Part shown: positions 8,631 to 20,826 of the stretch, in pieces
How the letters are laid out: every line of letters begins with the position of its first letter
Position numbering within the stretch: the stretch's first letter is position 1
Assembly (NCBI GenBank): GCA_030838385.1
Contig: JAUTWX010000032.1
Span: 1 to 36,119, forward strand
Direction of reading: 5' to 3'
Source of the DNA: Acidobacteriaceae bacterium
GTDB taxonomy: Bacteria > Acidobacteriota > Terriglobia > Terriglobales > Acidobacteriaceae
DNA length: 36,119 nucleotides
Notes under the pieces: generated by a model
What the model was told of the DNA's origin: nothing
The model's database searches: none
What the model saw: the letters and a program-made list of their open reading frames with translations, nothing else
Translations under genes and position numbers: made by a program

Positions 8631-9326
8631 GTGACGCCGATGCAGATGCGTGTGTACGTTGCCGCAATGATGGCAGCAGTGCTGCTGCCTTCGTTCACGT
8701 TCGCGAAGGACAAGCCGAAGTCCACGCTGCCCACGTACGTCCTGCAGGCGCAGACGGTCTCCGTCATCATCGATCCGAGCGCGGGTGAGTCGCTCGACGA
8801 TCCGCGGGCCAACGAGATGGCGCAGAGGGATGTGGAGACGGCGCTGCTGAACTGGGGGCGGTTTCAGCCTCTTCTCGCAGGCCGGAATGCGGACCTGGTG
8901 ATTGTCGTTCGCCGCGGAACCGGGAAGATGGCGAGCGGCACGGTTCATGATCCACGGCAGGGCCGGCGGCCAGTGGCAATCGATCCTACCGATACTGGGA
9001 TCGACGTTGGCATGCAACGCGGCCAACCGCCTCCCTATGCAGGCGACATACCCGATGCGTCGCAGGGATCTTCAATCCCGTCTCAGAATGGACCCCAGAA
9101 CGGGCCGATGACCGGGGACAGGGCTCATCCGCAGGCCGAGATGGGCACTTCCGTTGCGGAAGACAGCTTCCTGGTGTATCGAGGTCGTACGGAGAATCCG
9201 CTGGATGGGTCTCCGGTCTGGAGATATGAAGCGAAGAATGCGCTCAAGTCTCACAGTGTGCCGGCGGTGGAGACCTTCCGAAAGGCCGTCGACGAGGCTG
9301 AGCAGGCCGCGGTCAAACAGCCCTGA
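8631..9326 (+). CDS. Secreted hypothetical protein (start may be ATG at 8640)
   Basis: Signal peptide 'MRVYVAAMMAAVLLPSFTFA'; long ORF with intergenic space on both sides; no family recognised with certainty. Confidence 0.7.
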   Translation: MTPMQMRVYVAAMMAAVLLPSFTFAKDKPKSTLPTYVLQAQTVSVIIDPSAGESLDDPRANEMAQRDVETALLNWGRFQPLLAGRNADLVIVVRRGTGKMASGTVHDPRQGRRPVAIDPTDTGIDVGMQRGQPPPYAGDIPDASQGSSIPSQNGPQNGPMTGDRAHPQAEMGTSVAEDSFLVYRGRTENPLDGSPVWRYEAKNALKSHSVPAVETFRKAVDEAEQAAVKQP

Positions 9327-9332
9327 AGAGTG

Positions 9333-9361
9333 TTGGCAAGCGGGCGATAGCGGCGTATCAT
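9333..9361 (+). promoter_or_regulatory. Sigma70-type promoter for rimP-nusA-infB
   Basis: TTGGCA (9333-9338), exact 17-bp spacer, TATCAT (9356-9361), about 100 bp upstream of rimP. Confidence 0.7.
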
Positions 9362-9410
9362 AGCAATAGACGCGTTTGCTCCGTACGTGATGGCACCGGC
9401 GGAGGAGATG

Positions 9411-9433
9411 GGTGGGCGAAAGCCCACCTTTTT
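9411..9433 (+). terminator. Intrinsic terminator/attenuator in the rimP leader
   Basis: GGTGGGC (9411-9417) - GAAA - GCCCACC (9422-9428) followed by TTTTT; 7-bp perfect stem with GNRA tetraloop, between promoter and rimP start. Confidence 0.8.
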
Positions 9434-9461
9434 CTTGCAGCAAACGTGGCGCGGGCGGCGG

Positions 9462-10094
9462 ATGGCGGTAGATCTGGAAAAAATTCGTGCGACGGCGGAG
9501 CGTGTGGCGTCCAGTTATGGGCTGGAACCGGTCGATGTCGAATTTGTCGGCGGCGGCAAGCATCGGGTGCTGCGGGTATCGATCGAAAAGGATGCGGCGG
9601 GGCGGGCTCGGCTGGCTGCCGAGGCGAAGGCTGCCGCGGAGCGAGGCACGAACGACGAAGGCACAGTTCCGGCCGCCGTGCTGCGCGGGGAGCTGAGCTC
9701 CGAGCACCTCTCCGGCGTGACGCATGAGGACTGCGAGCGCTTCAGCCACGACTTCGGCACGGTGATTGAGGTCGAGGACCTGGTTCCAGGTGCGGAGTAC
9801 CTGCTGGAGGTTTCCTCGCCGGGACTGGATCGCAAGCTGAGCCGGCCTGCGGACTACGAGCGCTTTCGCGGCAGCCTGGTGAAGCTGCAGACCTTTCAGC
9901 CGGTCGCGGGCAACCGTCAATGGCAAGGCCGGCTGACGGCGGTCGACCTGAAGGCAGCAAATGGTGGCAAGATCACGCTCGATCGTTCTGCCATCCAAGT
10001 GAAAGGGAAGGCGAAGAAGGCGGCGACTGGCGATGCGCTGGTCGAAATTGAGTTGGCCAACATCGAGAAGGCGCAGCTCGTCCCCGAGCTGTAA
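9462..10094 (+). CDS. rimP: Ribosome maturation factor RimP, with an approximately 40-aa insertion
   Basis: 'RATAERVASSYGLEPVDVEFVGGGKHRVLRVSIEKD...EYLLEVSSPGLDRKLSRPADYERFRG...QWQGRLTAVD'; precedes nusA. Confidence 0.93.
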   Translation: MAVDLEKIRATAERVASSYGLEPVDVEFVGGGKHRVLRVSIEKDAAGRARLAAEAKAAAERGTNDEGTVPAAVLRGELSSEHLSGVTHEDCERFSHDFGTVIEVEDLVPGAEYLLEVSSPGLDRKLSRPADYERFRGSLVKLQTFQPVAGNRQWQGRLTAVDLKAANGGKITLDRSAIQVKGKAKKAATGDALVEIELANIEKAQLVPEL

Positions 10095-10192: not shown

Positions 10193-12046
10193 ATGGCGAG
10201 TCAGCTTTATCAGGTAATTGAAGGATTGAGCCGCGACAAGGGGATCGACCCACAGATCGTGGTGACCGCGGTTGAGGATGCGATCGCTCTAGCGACGCGC
10301 AAGTACTACAAGACGCAGGAAAACATGCGCGCCGAGCTGGACAAGGAGACGGGCGAGATTCGCGCGTACGTGTACAAGACCGTAACCGCGACCGATGACG
10401 AGATCGAAGACGACCTGAACCAGATCGCGCTGGAAGAGGCGAAGGAACTTGCGCCGGACGTGGAAGTAGGCGGCGAGATTCGCTACTACAAGCCGACCGA
10501 CGTGCTCGGCCGGATCGCCGCGCAGATGGCGAAGCAGGTGATCTTCCAGAAGGTTCGCGAGGCGGAGCGCGACACGGTCTTCAACGAGTACGCGCATCGC
10601 ACGGGCGAAGTGCTGACCGCGATGGTGAAGCGGCTGGAGCTGCAGGACGTGATCTTCGACCTGGGGAAGGCCGAAGCGCGCATGCCGCGCCGCGAGCAGA
10701 GCCGGCTGGAGCAGTTCAGCGTGGGTGAGCGGGTGCGCGTTATTCTGCTGCGCGTGGATCGCGCTGCAAAGGGGCCGCAGGTGGTGGTCTCGCGTGCCGC
10801 GCCAGAGCTGGTGCAGAGCCTCTTCCAGAGCGAGGTGCCGGAGATTTACGACGGCACGGTCAGCGTGCAAGCCATCGCGCGCGAGGCGGGCGAGCGGACC
10901 AAGATCGCCGTCCAATCGCGCGATAAGGATGTCGATCCGGTGGGTGCATGCGTCGGCATGAAGGGGATGCGCGTGCAGTCCATCATCCGCGAGCTGCGCG
11001 GCGAGAAGATCGACATCATCGAGTTCTCCGATGAGGTGACGACCTTCGCCGAGAAGGCGCTGCAGCCGGCCAAGGTGAGCCGCGTCAGCATCACCGATCT
11101 GACCGAAAAGCAGCTCGAGGTCATCGTGGATGACACGCAGCTCTCGCTGGCCATCGGCAAGAAGGGGCAGAACGTGCGGCTCGCAGCGAAGCTGCTGGGC
11201 TGGAAGATCGACATCAAGAGCGAGGAAGAGAAGCGCCAGGAAGTGGAGCAGCAGATGCAGGCGCTGAGCGGCGGCCCGTCGACGCCGATCGAACAGGTGA
11301 CCGAGCTGGGCGAGACGATCATCCAGAAACTGGTCGCCGCCGGCATCACGACCGTCGAATCGCTGGCCGATATGACTCCGGAGCAACTGGAGGAGATCCC
11401 GGGCATCGGCGAAAAGACGCTGGAGAAGATTTCAATCGCGGTGCGCCATTACTTCGGCCAGTACGAAGAGGGCGAGGAGCGGCCGGAGGGCGCTGCATCT
11501 CAATCTGCAGAGGGGGATGCAATGCAAGCCGACAATATTGACAACGCACTCACCCAGCCGGAAGAGGCGCTGGTAGGACAGCGGCCGGGCGGCGATGACC
11601 TGGTGGAAGCGGACGTGCTCGGTCGCGACGATGTTGTGACCGGTGCGGGTGAGGACAACGAGCGGGCGCCGAATCGGGCCGATCTCGAGGCGCTCGACAC
11701 TGATGCCACGCTGGACGAAGAGCGGGCGAAGGCCGATGCGGAGCTGGGCGAGGAGCTGGACGCCCTGCGAGTGGATGATGCGGATGGAACGAATGAGAAC
11801 CCGGATAGCAGGGACAGCTCGGGCCGCGTCGTCGACGAAATAGCTCGGGAACGCATAGAAGAGCTCACCGAGTCCGGCCGCGAGGCCGGCGAGGTGGGGG
11901 TTCTGCCACAGGACGTTGGAAACGACGACACCAGCGCCCGTCTGCGGCGTCAAAATCCAGCCAACAGCCCCCTTCCAGGCGGGGAGGCAGAGGAAGAGAC
12001 AGTGCTTCCCGATGCCCGCCCGCAGAGCGACGACGAAGGTGTGTAA
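10193..12046 (+). CDS. nusA: Transcription termination/antitermination protein NusA with a long acidic C-terminal tail
   Basis: NusA N-domain, S1 'GERVRVILLRVDRAAKGPQVVVSRAAPELV', KH 'DPVGACVGMKGMRVQSIIRELRGEKIDIIEF', 'LSLAIGKKGQNVRLAAKLLGWKIDIKSE', HhH region. Confidence 0.97.
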   Translation: MASQLYQVIEGLSRDKGIDPQIVVTAVEDAIALATRKYYKTQENMRAELDKETGEIRAYVYKTVTATDDEIEDDLNQIALEEAKELAPDVEVGGEIRYYKPTDVLGRIAAQMAKQVIFQKVREAERDTVFNEYAHRTGEVLTAMVKRLELQDVIFDLGKAEARMPRREQSRLEQFSVGERVRVILLRVDRAAKGPQVVVSRAAPELVQSLFQSEVPEIYDGTVSVQAIAREAGERTKIAVQSRDKDVDPVGACVGMKGMRVQSIIRELRGEKIDIIEFSDEVTTFAEKALQPAKVSRVSITDLTEKQLEVIVDDTQLSLAIGKKGQNVRLAAKLLGWKIDIKSEEEKRQEVEQQMQALSGGPSTPIEQVTELGETIIQKLVAAGITTVESLADMTPEQLEEIPGIGEKTLEKISIAVRHYFGQYEEGEERPEGAASQSAEGDAMQADNIDNALTQPEEALVGQRPGGDDLVEADVLGRDDVVTGAGEDNERAPNRADLEALDTDATLDEERAKADAELGEELDALRVDDADGTNENPDSRDSSGRVVDEIARERIEELTESGREAGEVGVLPQDVGNDDTSARLRRQNPANSPLPGGEAEEETVLPDARPQSDDEGV

Positions 12047-12216: not shown

Positions 12217-15200
12217 ATGAGTAAAGTTCGCATCAACGATTTGGCAAGAGAGCTCGAAGTCAAGAGCAAAGCGATTCTTGACGTACTGCGTGAGGTTGGG
12301 GTGACCGACCCGAAAACGCATTCCAGCTCGCTCGAGTTAGATGAAGCGCAGCGTGTGCGCGCGCATTTCCAGCGTGGGAGCAGCCGCAACGGCTCAACCG
12401 CAACGAAGGGCGAGAGCGGGTCCGCCCAGAAGATCGACTGGTCGCGAGTATCGAAGCCCGGCGACGTTCTCAAAGCGATCCAACAGCGTAAAGAAGAGGC
12501 GGAGCGGCCAGCGCCGCGGCCCCAAGGCACGCCTGCCGCCGCTGCCCAGCCTGCTGCGCCAGCGGTGCCTGCTGCTTCGGCCGCACCTGCGGCTGCGCCG
12601 CCTGCCAGCGTGCCCGCTGCTGCGCCCAAGGCTGAGCCTCCAACTCCGCCGCGACGCATCGTCGTACCTCAGCCGCGGCAGGCGCCGCCGATCGTGACTG
12701 CGCCCCCGCCACAGGCTCCGGCTATTGCCGCGAAACCGCCTGCCGGCCCCGTCGTGGCCCGTCCTCCTGTGACGGCTGCTCCGCCGGCTGCAGCGTCCAC
12801 GGCGCAGCGTCCGGCAATCGCCTCGGCTCCGCCCACAAATACGGTGGTCGCACGTCCGGCTGCTGCCGCTGCTCCGCCTGCGCCAGCCGCGGCCAGTGCT
12901 GCGCCCGCAGCGGCTCCTCCTCCCGCAGCGGTTGCTCCGCCTGCAACGCCGCCGGTTGCAGCTGCACCGGAAGCGCCGGAGGTCTCTGCCGCAGCGCCCA
13001 CGCCGATCAGGCGGGTCATCATGCCGCAGACCGGCCCGCGTCCGGTCTACAGCGCACCGCCGCCGCGTCCTGTTGCACCGCAGGCTCCAAGTGGACCTGC
13101 TGGTTCGGGCGGCGTCATTCAGCGCGGCCGACCCATCTTCCAGCGCCCCGGTGGACCAGGCGGCTATCCGCAGCGTCCAGGCGCTCCCGCAGGCGCAGGC
13201 GCTCCTGGTGGCTTTCCAGCAGGACGCCGGCCCATGCATCCCACGCGTTCCGCGCCCACAGGCGCTCCGGGCGGCCGTCCGGGCTTTGGTCCGCGTCCCG
13301 GTGGTCCTGGTGGCCGTCCCGGCTTCGGCCAGCGACCCGGTGGTCCCCCTGGGGCCGGCGGCGGACTCATGCCGCCTCCGGGCGAAGCGCCGCGTCCACA
13401 GCGTCCGAGTGGTCCGCCACGCGGCCGTGGACGCCAGCAGTACCCGAAGACCAAGGAAGGCCCGATGAAGGGCTTCGCTCCGCCATCGCGTTTCGGTGGA
13501 GCGCAGGTTCCGCAGGAGCCGCTGCCCATCACCCGCACCATCACGGTGACCGAGGGCATCAGCGTGAAGGACCTGGCGGAGAAGCTCGGCGTGCGCGGCA
13601 AGGATCTGATCGCAAGCCTGTTGATGCGCGGTGTGCTGGTCACGGTGAATCAGTCGCTCGATGCGGAACTGGTGAAGGATGTGGCGCGTCAATTCGGCGC
13701 GGACGCTACCATCATCAGCTTCGAAGACGAGATGGCCAACGAGGCGCTCGAAACACTCCTCGGAACCGAGCACGTCGGCGAGATCGAAGTGACGCGTTCA
13801 CCCGTAGTCACAGTGATGGGCCACGTCGATCACGGCAAGACTTCGCTGCTCGATGCGATCCGCGAAACGGATGTAGCGGCGGGCGAAGCCGGCGGTATCA
13901 CGCAGCACATCGGCGCGTACAAGGTCCGCATCACCAAGCAGGATTCACCTGCCTTTGGCCGCGAGATCGTCTTTCTCGATACGCCGGGTCACGAGGCATT
14001 TACCCGCATGCGTGCGCGCGGCGCGAAGGTGACCGACATCGTGGTCATCGTGGTCGCAGCGGATGACGGCGTGATGCCCCAGACGCTCGAAGCCATCGAC
14101 CACGCCAAGGCGGCGAATGTGCCGATGATCGTGGCGGTGAACAAGATCGACAAGCCGGATGCGCAGCCGGACCGCGTGAAGCAGCAGTTGGGCGATCGCG
14201 GGCTGGTGCCTGAGGCGTGGGGCGGTTCGACCGTCTTCGTCGATGTATCGGCGAAGAAGCGGCTGAATCTGGACCTGCTGCTCGAAATGATCTGCCTCAC
14301 GGCGGATCTCGGCGATCTCAAGGCGACGCCCGATCGTTCGGGTCTGGGTACGGTGCTCGAAGCCAAGCTCGATCGCGGCCGCGGCGTTGTCGCGAGCGTG
14401 CTGGTACAGAACGGCACACTGCGCAACAGCGACAGCTTCATCGTAGGCAACACCTTCGGCAAGGTCCGCGCCATGTTTGACGATCGCGGCCGGTCGATCG
14501 ACGAGGCAGGGCCATCGACTCCGGTTGAGATCCTGGGCCTCGAAGGCATGCCGGATGCGGGCGACAACTTCCTTGTCGTCGCGGATCGCGACAAGGCGAA
14601 GGGCATTGCGCAGTACCGCAAGATGAAGGAGCGTGAATCGCAACTGGCGAAGAGCTCGCGTGTCTCGCTCGAAGGCTTGGCAGAGCAGATCAAGCAGGCC
14701 GGCGTCAAAGACCTGCCGCTCATCCTCAAGGGCGATGTGCAGGGCTCGGTGCAGGTGCTCTCCGATTCGCTCAGCAAGATGTCGACCGAGAAGGTGCGGA
14801 TCAAGATTCTCCACACCGGCGTCGGCGCCATCACGGAGAGCGACATCCTGCTGGCTTCTGCATCCAACGCGATCGTGATCGGCTTCAACGTGCGGCCGGA
14901 GCGCAAGGCCGCCGATCTGGCCGAGCAGGAAGGCGTGGAAATCCGGCTGCACTCGATTATTTACGAGCTGCAGGACGAGATCACCAAGGCGATGCTGGGG
15001 CTGCTCGATCCGGTCTTCAAGGAGAGCTATCAGGGGCGTGCGCTGGTGCAGGAGGTCTTCCGCATCCCGAAGGTGGGCACCATCGCCGGCTGCCGCGTTA
15101 CCGACGGGTCGATCCGTCGCGACGCAGAAGTCCGCGTGATGCGTGGCGGCGAGCAGGTCTTCAAGGGCAAGCTCGCATCGCTCAAGCGCTTCAAGGACGA

Positions 15201-15327
15201 TGCGCGCGAGGTCACTAACGGTATGGAGTGCGGCATGGGATTTGCCGGCTTCAGCGACGTGCAACAGGGCGACCAGATCGAGGCCTTCGTGACCGAGAAG
15301 GTTGCGGCGGAGCTGACGGCGCGCTGA
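12217..15327 (+). CDS. infB: Translation initiation factor IF-2
   Basis: IF2_N domain, Pro/Ala/Gly-rich linker, G1 'GHVDHGKTSLLDAIRETDVAAGEAGGITQHIGAY', 'DTPGHEAFTRMRARGA', 'NKID'. Confidence 0.98.
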   Translation: MSKVRINDLARELEVKSKAILDVLREVGVTDPKTHSSSLELDEAQRVRAHFQRGSSRNGSTATKGESGSAQKIDWSRVSKPGDVLKAIQQRKEEAERPAPRPQGTPAAAAQPAAPAVPAASAAPAAAPPASVPAAAPKAEPPTPPRRIVVPQPRQAPPIVTAPPPQAPAIAAKPPAGPVVARPPVTAAPPAAASTAQRPAIASAPPTNTVVARPAAAAAPPAPAAASAAPAAAPPPAAVAPPATPPVAAAPEAPEVSAAAPTPIRRVIMPQTGPRPVYSAPPPRPVAPQAPSGPAGSGGVIQRGRPIFQRPGGPGGYPQRPGAPAGAGAPGGFPAGRRPMHPTRSAPTGAPGGRPGFGPRPGGPGGRPGFGQRPGGPPGAGGGLMPPPGEAPRPQRPSGPPRGRGRQQYPKTKEGPMKGFAPPSRFGGAQVPQEPLPITRTITVTEGISVKDLAEKLGVRGKDLIASLLMRGVLVTVNQSLDAELVKDVARQFGADATIISFEDEMANEALETLLGTEHVGEIEVTRSPVVTVMGHVDHGKTSLLDAIRETDVAAGEAGGITQHIGAYKVRITKQDSPAFGREIVFLDTPGHEAFTRMRARGAKVTDIVVIVVAADDGVMPQTLEAIDHAKAANVPMIVAVNKIDKPDAQPDRVKQQLGDRGLVPEAWGGSTVFVDVSAKKRLNLDLLLEMICLTADLGDLKATPDRSGLGTVLEAKLDRGRGVVASVLVQNGTLRNSDSFIVGNTFGKVRAMFDDRGRSIDEAGPSTPVEILGLEGMPDAGDNFLVVADRDKAKGIAQYRKMKERESQLAKSSRVSLEGLAEQIKQAGVKDLPLILKGDVQGSVQVLSDSLSKMSTEKVRIKILHTGVGAITESDILLASASNAIVIGFNVRPERKAADLAEQEGVEIRLHSIIYELQDEITKAMLGLLDPVFKESYQGRALVQEVFRIPKVGTIAGCRVTDGSIRRDAEVRVMRGGEQVFKGKLASLKRFKDDAREVTNGMECGMGFAGFSDVQQGDQIEAFVTEKVAAELTAR
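13270..13347 (+). repeat. Two tandem 13-codon repeats (GGRPGFG[P/Q]RPGGP) in the IF-2 linker
   Basis: GGRPGFGPRPGGP (13270-13308) then GGRPGFGQRPGGP (13309-13347). Confidence 0.9.
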
Positions 15328-19259: not shown

Positions 19260-20321
19260 CTAAAAGAGTGTCCGCAGCCGCGCGAGGATCGAATCCGAAG
19301 CCGCGGGCATGGGCCCGGGCAGGGTGCAGCCGCTGGCGTTTTCATGACCGCCGCCGCCGAGGCTCTCGGCCACGGACGCGACGTTCACCGCGCCTTTGCT
19401 GCGCAGGCTGAGCCGTACGCGATGGTCCGGCAGCTCGCGCAGGAAGACCGCAACCTCCACGCCGGCGATGCCGATCGCGTAGTTCACAATGCCTTCGCAG
19501 TCCTCTTCGGCGGCGTTGGTGCGTTCCATGTCCGATGTCGTCACCCACAACCACGCAATGCGGCCGTCGCGCCGGAGGTTGGCCAGCGCCGCGCCCAGCA
19601 GCAGCATCTTCGACATCGGGTTTGAGAAGTAGACATCCTGCGCGATGCGCGGGGGACATGCGCCGAGCCTTACCAGCTCGTGGGCGAGTGAAAAGGTATG
19701 CGTGTCCGTGCCTTCGTAGCAGAACGATCCGGTGTCGGTGAGCACGGCCATGTAGAGGCAGGTGGCCATTTCCGGCGTGATGCGCACCTCTGCCGTGCGC
19801 GCGAGGGTGAAGACCTGCTCGGCAACGGCGCAGGCATCGGTGTCGATCCAGTTGAGGTGAGCGAAGTTGCGGCCGCTGGTGTGGTGATCGATGTTGATGA
19901 GGCGGCGTCCTTCGAGGCCTTTGAGTCGACTGCGTTCGATGCCATCGCACTCCAGCAGGATGACGAGGTCGAAGTCGCCGTCGACCCTCTGCCAGTGCTG
20001 GATGCTCTGCGCGCAGGGCAGCCAGCGATAGATGAGCGGCACGCGGTCGCTGAAGGCCATAGTTGCCTGCTTGCCAAGCTGTTCCAGCATCATCCCGCAG
20101 GCCAGCACGGAGCCGACAGCGTCGCCATCCGGGCGCGCATGCGCGGTCACCAGGATGCTCCGTCCGTCATGGATCGCCTGGAGGATGGGACGGATGGCGG
20201 CATCGCGCCGATGGTTGTACGCAGAGCCTCGTCCGCGCCTCCCCTCTTCTAAGGGCGAGTCCGCAAGAGCGCCAACCAGCGCCGGATCGAGCTGCCGCGA
20301 CATGGAGGCAGACTGCTTCAT
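19260..20321 (-). CDS. DHH/DHHA1 family phosphoesterase, NrnA-like
   Basis: 'VTAHARPDGDAVGSVLA', 'INIDHHTSG', 'VLTDTGSF', C-terminal 'GGGGHENASG'; 4-nt overlap with rbfA. Confidence 0.93.
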   Translation of the reverse strand: MKQSASMSRQLDPALVGALADSPLEEGRRGRGSAYNHRRDAAIRPILQAIHDGRSILVTAHARPDGDAVGSVLACGMMLEQLGKQATMAFSDRVPLIYRWLPCAQSIQHWQRVDGDFDLVILLECDGIERSRLKGLEGRRLINIDHHTSGRNFAHLNWIDTDACAVAEQVFTLARTAEVRITPEMATCLYMAVLTDTGSFCYEGTDTHTFSLAHELVRLGACPPRIAQDVYFSNPMSKMLLLGAALANLRRDGRIAWLWVTTSDMERTNAAEEDCEGIVNYAIGIAGVEVAVFLRELPDHRVRLSLRSKGAVNVASVAESLGGGGHENASGCTLPGPMPAASDSILARLRTLF

Positions 20322-20734
20322 GCGCCTTTGCCGGCCTCCGAAGCGGGTGCGGGTGTCTGGGAGGAGCTGCTGCCCTTACGGCGCCGCCTGCGACCCAGCA
20401 GTTCGTCGATGCGGGCCGTCATCCGGTCCGTACGATCGAGGTGAAAGGTAAGCTCCGGCACATGACGGACGCCCATGCGCTCCAGTAGCTCATGCCGGAT
20501 GAAGCCGCGCGCTGACGCCAGCGCTTCGAGCATCGGCTCCTCATCTTCAGCCGGGCCGTCGTTTGCGACGTAAACCCGCGCGGACTTGCCGCCGACGTTC
20601 AGCACCACCTCTGTCACGTGTGCTGAGCCGATGCGCGGATCCGAGAGCTCTCCCTGGATCATGGTGCTGATCTCGTCGCGCAGGGTCTCGGCTACACGGC
20701 CCTGATGGTATTTGCGGGCGCGTTGCTCTGGCAT
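20318..20734 (-). CDS. rbfA: Ribosome-binding factor A
   Basis: 'VAETLRDEISTMIQGELSDPRIGSAHVTEVVLNVGGKSARVYV...RHELLERMGVRHVPELTFHLDRT'; start at MPEQRARK. Confidence 0.95.
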   Translation of the reverse strand: MPEQRARKYHQGRVAETLRDEISTMIQGELSDPRIGSAHVTEVVLNVGGKSARVYVANDGPAEDEEPMLEALASARGFIRHELLERMGVRHVPELTFHLDRTDRMTARIDELLGRRRRRKGSSSSQTPAPASEAGKGA

Positions 20735-20826
20735 GACGAACCTCCCGGGGTAAACCCAAAAGGATACCAGAGTGCACGAAGCGGATCGGAGCATTTATGA
20801 GTTCAGACCAGCGGTGCCTCGGGTGG

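Follow-up and report, generated by a model that had tools for sequence, protein, structure and literature searches.

A conserved terminator and a covarying hairpin in the rimP-nusA-infB leader of Acidobacteriaceae, a probable site of NusA feedback

The DNA analysed here, a stretch of 36,119 nt referred to as the window, comes from the 4.4 Mb draft genome (G000) of a soil bacterium in the Acidobacteriaceae, the family to which the relatives used for comparison also belong. A hypothetical gene, a leader segment, rimP, nusA and infB follow one another at the locus, and a re-reading of the window sequence confirmed all coordinates given in an earlier note on this DNA. The features discussed below are the following.

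8631-9326: hypothetical gene upstream, before the leader segment
9333-9338, + strand: -35 hexamer TTGGCA
9356-9361, + strand: -10 hexamer TATCAT, after a 17-nt spacer
9368, + strand: predicted transcription start, placed 7 nt after the -10 hexamer and uncertain by about 2 nt
9366-9372, + strand: 5' block, ATAGACG here (degraded) and GCAGACG in most relatives, a weak candidate for pairing with the 5' arm of the terminator
9373-9410, + strand: hairpin P1, defined by folding and covariation
9373-9377 with 9406-9410: P1 outer helix, CGUUU with AGAUG
9378/9405: G.G mismatch of P1
9379-9384 with 9399-9404: P1 inner helix, CUCCGU with GCGGAG
9387-9389 with 9394-9396: P1 apical pairing, GUG with CAC
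9411-9428, + strand: terminator hairpin GGUGGGC-GAAA-GCCCACC, the rimP-leader motif
9429-9436, + strand: interrupted U tract UUUUUCUU
9439-9446, + strand: AGCAAACG, 3' strand of a long-range helix proposed in the earlier note, judged not to be a functional part
9462-10094, + strand: rimP, with its ATG at 9462
10193-12046, + strand: nusA, the proposed feedback regulator
12217-15327, + strand: infB, downstream gene of the operon

RimP carries an apparent insertion in its N-terminal domain, with Pfam RimP_N matching profile positions 35-73 only. RbfA-like and DHH phosphoesterase-like genes are often found next after infB; ORF translations place such genes on the opposite strand, about 4 kb away (19260-20794). 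In this genome, the rimP frame stays open in the upstream direction past the entire terminator, as far as a GTG at 9387 (9387-9461), an opening that looks accidental; stops close the frame in most relatives. A leader peptide was likewise rejected: in many relatives the AUG before the terminator (AUGAGUGGGC) is replaced by AGG, ACG, ACA or AUA, and the lengths of the loops are not multiples of three, so that coding is not conserved.

The family set was built from a nusA search that yielded 80 Acidobacteriaceae loci; rimP was placed in all of them and the sequence 5' of it was compared, giving 81 leaders with that of the window. A promoter resembling TTGNNN-N16/18-TANNNT occupies a constant register in 81/81 leaders, including a -35-like hexamer in each and a spacer of 17 nt in 73/81, and its matches to consensus average 8.5/12 versus 1.2 in local shuffles. 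The promoter TTGGCA-N17-TATCAT read earlier from the window alone was correctly positioned. It is the sole sigma-70-like site in the surrounding 9 kb; shuffles contain 1.0 on average, so the local scan proves nothing by itself.

The terminator described in the earlier note (in DNA form GGTGGGC-GAAA-GCCCACC at 9411-9428, then TTTTTCTT) and the rimP start at 9462 were also placed correctly. A stem of the AGUGGGC-loop-GCCCACU type followed by a U tract is found in every leader (81/81); the earlier note had named loss of the hairpin or U tract in relatives as grounds for abandoning its reading, and both proved conserved. Within the family alignment the G-C core is invariant. At the edge of the stem, the A-U pair of the relatives is replaced by G-C in the window, both sides having changed together, and the inner C-G becomes U-A in L156/L157. 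These two leaders (G049, G217) read AGUGGGU-GAGA-ACCCACU, a compensatory change of the innermost pair that is rare in the otherwise invariant core. Two leaders of one genus (L158 and L159; G179, G225) are diverged, with GGUGGGC/GCCCGCC and AUUUUCUUU, and P1 is not clearly recognisable in them. Folding of the predicted leader RNA (9368-9436) gave z = -3.7. On comparative grounds, the promoter and terminator, both present in all 80 Acidobacteriaceae relatives, can be regarded as real regulatory anatomy.

In 81/81 leaders the U tract is broken exactly once, close to its middle, and it has the form TT[ACG]TTT (TTVTTT) in 77/81, versus 5/16 other terminator-like tails at the same loci; the 81 tracts belong to related leaders and are therefore not 81 independent observations. 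The window's own tract (TTTTTCTTG) lacks the exact TTNTTT motif, and TTVTTT is far less regular in outgroup leaders outside Acidobacteriaceae. In B. subtilis, interrupted U tracts are described for terminators that depend on NusA and NusG, and the NusG pause motif is TTNTTT (PMC8060035). Given its interrupted U tract, the acidobacterial terminator is probably dependent on NusA, and possibly on NusG as well. Of the two marks of a suboptimal terminator, the interruption occurs in 81/81 leaders, and the basal pair is A-U in relatives but G-C in the window; the terminator helix of the window is thermodynamically strong (P = 0.99).

When 61 leaders were folded with RNAalifold and no structure was suggested, two helices emerged, namely the terminator and the stem just upstream of it, P1. 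The family form of P1 is GUUU-G-UCCNNN ... NNNGGA-G-AGAU, with the G.G mismatch. In the structural alignment of the 61 leaders, 98.5% of cells in the P1 helices are paired versus 90.7% when shuffled and 43-65% when slid, and double-change cells number 89 versus 31. An anchored swap test, in which the left and right strands were anchored separately and hence independently of the structural alignment, gave 5.12/6 pairs versus 3.86 (sd 0.16) after partner swaps, with 0/2000 swaps as high. These covariation statistics ignore shared ancestry; since C-G, G-C, U-G and U-A pair types occur at the same P1 positions, common descent alone appears an unlikely cause of the pairing.

P1 abuts the terminator, so both can coexist, and in the window it has no U tract of its own. 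It is absent from the inspected outgroup leaders and from some genera of the same family, where the -10 hexamer stands about 30-45 nt from the terminator; P1 is therefore treated as a domain of the core Acidobacteriaceae. A description of an acidobacterial rimP-leader or of P1 was not found in the open literature searched, and P1 is regarded as a new, family-specific hairpin on the known rimP-leader attenuator. Its role is a guess; most likely it would serve as a platform on the 5' side for stacking or folding, or as a place where NusA or some other protein binds. It is improbable that P1 acts as a sensory or protein-binding RNA domain particular to the family and gates termination at the widespread rimP-leader terminator, for instance with the 5' block capturing the 5' arm; if it did, Acidobacteriaceae would govern NusA and IF2 through a switch missing from other bacteria.

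R1, a covariance model for the leader, matched one copy in this genome, and the search found no further leader copies there. Strong R1 matches (>60 bits) among 297 Acidobacteriota genomes were confined to Acidobacteriaceae. Weak matches occurred across the phylum; the inspected ones (L104-L111) precede rimP and comprise the terminator only, without P1. The pattern GTGGGCN{3,8}GCCCACNTTT, representing the GUGGGC-loop-GCCCAC-U core, occurs once in the 4.4 Mb genome and in 119/294 Acidobacteriota genomes, with few matches to a reversed control pattern. In 45 of the 50 genomes having both a core match and a nusA coordinate, the core lies <1 kb upstream of nusA, on the sense strand in 44. Among 40 genomes from 37 other families, 31 have GUGGG..CCCAC plus a U tract before rimP and 2 more a close variant (33/40); the remaining 7/40 outgroup leaders have no such terminator. 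A plasmid search returned nothing meaningful, the resemblance of GAGUUUG-UCC to the 5' end of 16S rRNA was within chance, and no riboswitch or other Rfam family matched the window at gathering, matches at E<=10 being at chance level.

The earlier note had further proposed that an 8-bp helix encloses the terminator. The complementarity itself is real, CGTTTGCT at 9373-9380 pairing perfectly with 9439-9446, and its chance occurrence had been put at several percent; about 1% of shuffles equal it in this genome, yet the match is unconserved in relatives. Across 79 genomes, no excess complementarity was detected between the 5' region and the stretch from the U tract to rimP (mean z -0.05, standard error 0.11), and the enclosing helix is therefore not upheld as a feature of the leader. 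Its 5' strand is the 5' strand of P1, and it appears in the best fold only of this genome's readthrough RNA, hence after the termination decision. The covariation check that had been suggested for both helices divided them, the terminator pairs changing together and the enclosing helix finding no support. A few cases of 7-9 bp exist among the 79 leaders, three of which (L007, L024, L027) are alike in sequence. These three share 7-9 nt 3' of the terminator (ACTCGTC, AAACTCGTC, CAAACTCG) that are complementary to the 5' block, perhaps a local peculiarity of these leaders.

The leader anatomy, its conservation, its specificity for rimP and the covariation of P1 are matters of observation. In the mechanism proposed to account for them, a sigma-70-type promoter would drive a leader RNA of about 70 nt from the 9333-9436 segment, and this RNA would fold with P1 stacked directly on the intrinsic terminator. 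A fraction of RNA polymerases would stop at the U tract, the rest transcribing rimP-nusA-infB, and high NusA would raise termination and so lower its own operon. The best explanation, and a fairly probable one, is that NusA, perhaps together with NusG, attenuates rimP-nusA-infB by feedback at this promoter-proximal terminator. We infer that partial termination takes place in vivo and that its effector is NusA; no motif for NusA binding was identified. The link to NusA feedback, advanced earlier as an inference, is strengthened by analogy, through membership in the rimP-leader family (PMC2965389) and the NusA autoregulation of B. subtilis (PMC12288461), and NusA feedback on this operon is accordingly graded as likely.

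The same anatomy could belong to an unregulated, fixed attenuator that allows constant low readthrough and responds to no factor. Anatomy alone does not show regulation, and a well-supported antiterminator is not visible; on the other side, across the phylum the stem keeps its exact letters and is tied to rimP, which is more than a plain terminator needs, and NusA feedback on the rimP operon has been reported in other bacteria (PMC2965389, PMC12288461). We consider a fixed attenuator unlikely.

Somewhat more doubtful is a switchable attenuator in which pairing between the conserved 5' block, GCAGACGA, and the 5' arm of the terminator, GAGUGGGC, forms a factor-stabilised antiterminator. Such an antiterminator would extend P1 outwards through GC, AC and tandem G.A pairs in register with it; four positions of block and arm are compatible in 95.7% of cells, versus 5-48% in other registers, A-U to G-U changes are tolerated, and in the modelled nascent RNA the 5' arm is predicted to be partly paired upstream (mean 0.54). 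However, the 5' arm is invariant, so covariation cannot decide the matter, and 5' blocks come close to the same fit after shuffling (median fraction 0.075; 0.92 in the window). The terminator form is also more stable by 4-12 kcal/mol, and the window's 5' block, ATAGACGCG, fits the 5' arm poorly.

Feedback might instead come from a ribosome-related protein, RimP or another, through binding to P1. RimP feedback is an alternative named in PMC2965389, and the NusA model can do without P1, a conserved structured element of the family; with the terminator motif occurring all across the remaining phylum in leaders that lack P1, this reading seems very unlikely. That the hairpin is an ordinary 3' terminator of the upstream gene can be dismissed almost entirely, for while it lies about 85 bp past the stop of gene 8631-9326 and would end that transcript too, a conserved promoter separates the two, and the gene adjoins the leader in 0/80 relatives, the terminator being present in all, from which it follows that the terminator travels with rimP.

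The feedback leader of NusA, an essential general transcription factor, has been described as the most ubiquitous of attenuators; the letter-by-letter conservation of the terminator stem is so far without explanation. Across their phylum, the Acidobacteriota provide a natural series of leaders that have or lack P1, which makes it testable whether NusA dependence is set by the stem sequence, the U-tract interruption or the upstream hairpin. RNA family libraries could also take up the leader as an acidobacterial member.

Among known systems, the gammaproteobacterial rimP leader (Rfam RF01770) shares the gene context. The window matched its model neither at gathering (47 bits) nor at E 10, while the E. 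coli control scored 102 bits; conversely, R1 did not match the E. coli leader. RF01770 has tandem terminators, the upstream one of the form CCCg...cGGG, and in E. coli K-12 the terminator adjoining rimP is CUGGGCUUUAGGCCCUUUUUUU, inside RF01770; the window has a single terminator. Membership in RF01770 was ruled out by the missing model match and the lack of tandem terminators.

In S. agalactiae, the rimP-nusA leader of gbs0413-gbs0418 gives a short terminated RNA and a long transcript from one transcription start, and NusA feedback has been proposed (PMC4448216). Both leaders place the terminator very near the transcription start, which is a predicted one in the window (31 nt in S. agalactiae). 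They differ in that no P1 is reported there and in that its transcripts were observed, the acidobacterial leader being known from sequence. Autoregulation of B. subtilis NusA by termination in its leader has also been reported (review, PMC12288461). That leader resembles the present one in its promoter-proximal intrinsic terminator before the nusA operon and in the interrupted U tract (PMC8060035). Dependence on NusA was measured in B. subtilis and is surmised here, and the Nus-dependent terminators of that species have weak basal pairs, unlike the G-C basal pair and strong terminator of the window.

The closest counterpart is the general rimP-leader family, defined by a GGGc...gCCC terminator and U tract before rimP with no larger conserved element, for which NusA was the favoured regulator and RimP feedback was raised as an alternative (PMC2965389; Naville and Gautheret, 2010). 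Its genes lie 4-130 nt beyond the element; here the stem ends at 9428 and the ATG is at 9462, with 33 nt between. The stem and tract (GGUGGGC-GAAA-GCCCACC-UUUUUCUU) agree with the family form, and the conserved sequence is specific to rimP, as the single match in the genome and the 45/50 cores <1 kb upstream of nusA indicate. By these sequence features, the window leader is assigned to the general rimP-leader family, with which it has in common the position before rimP-nusA-infB, a GGGC...GCCC stem with U tract, rimP-specific sequence and no clear antiterminator. It departs from that family in being preceded by the conserved, covarying P1 and in a conservation that reaches GUGGGC/GCCCAC.
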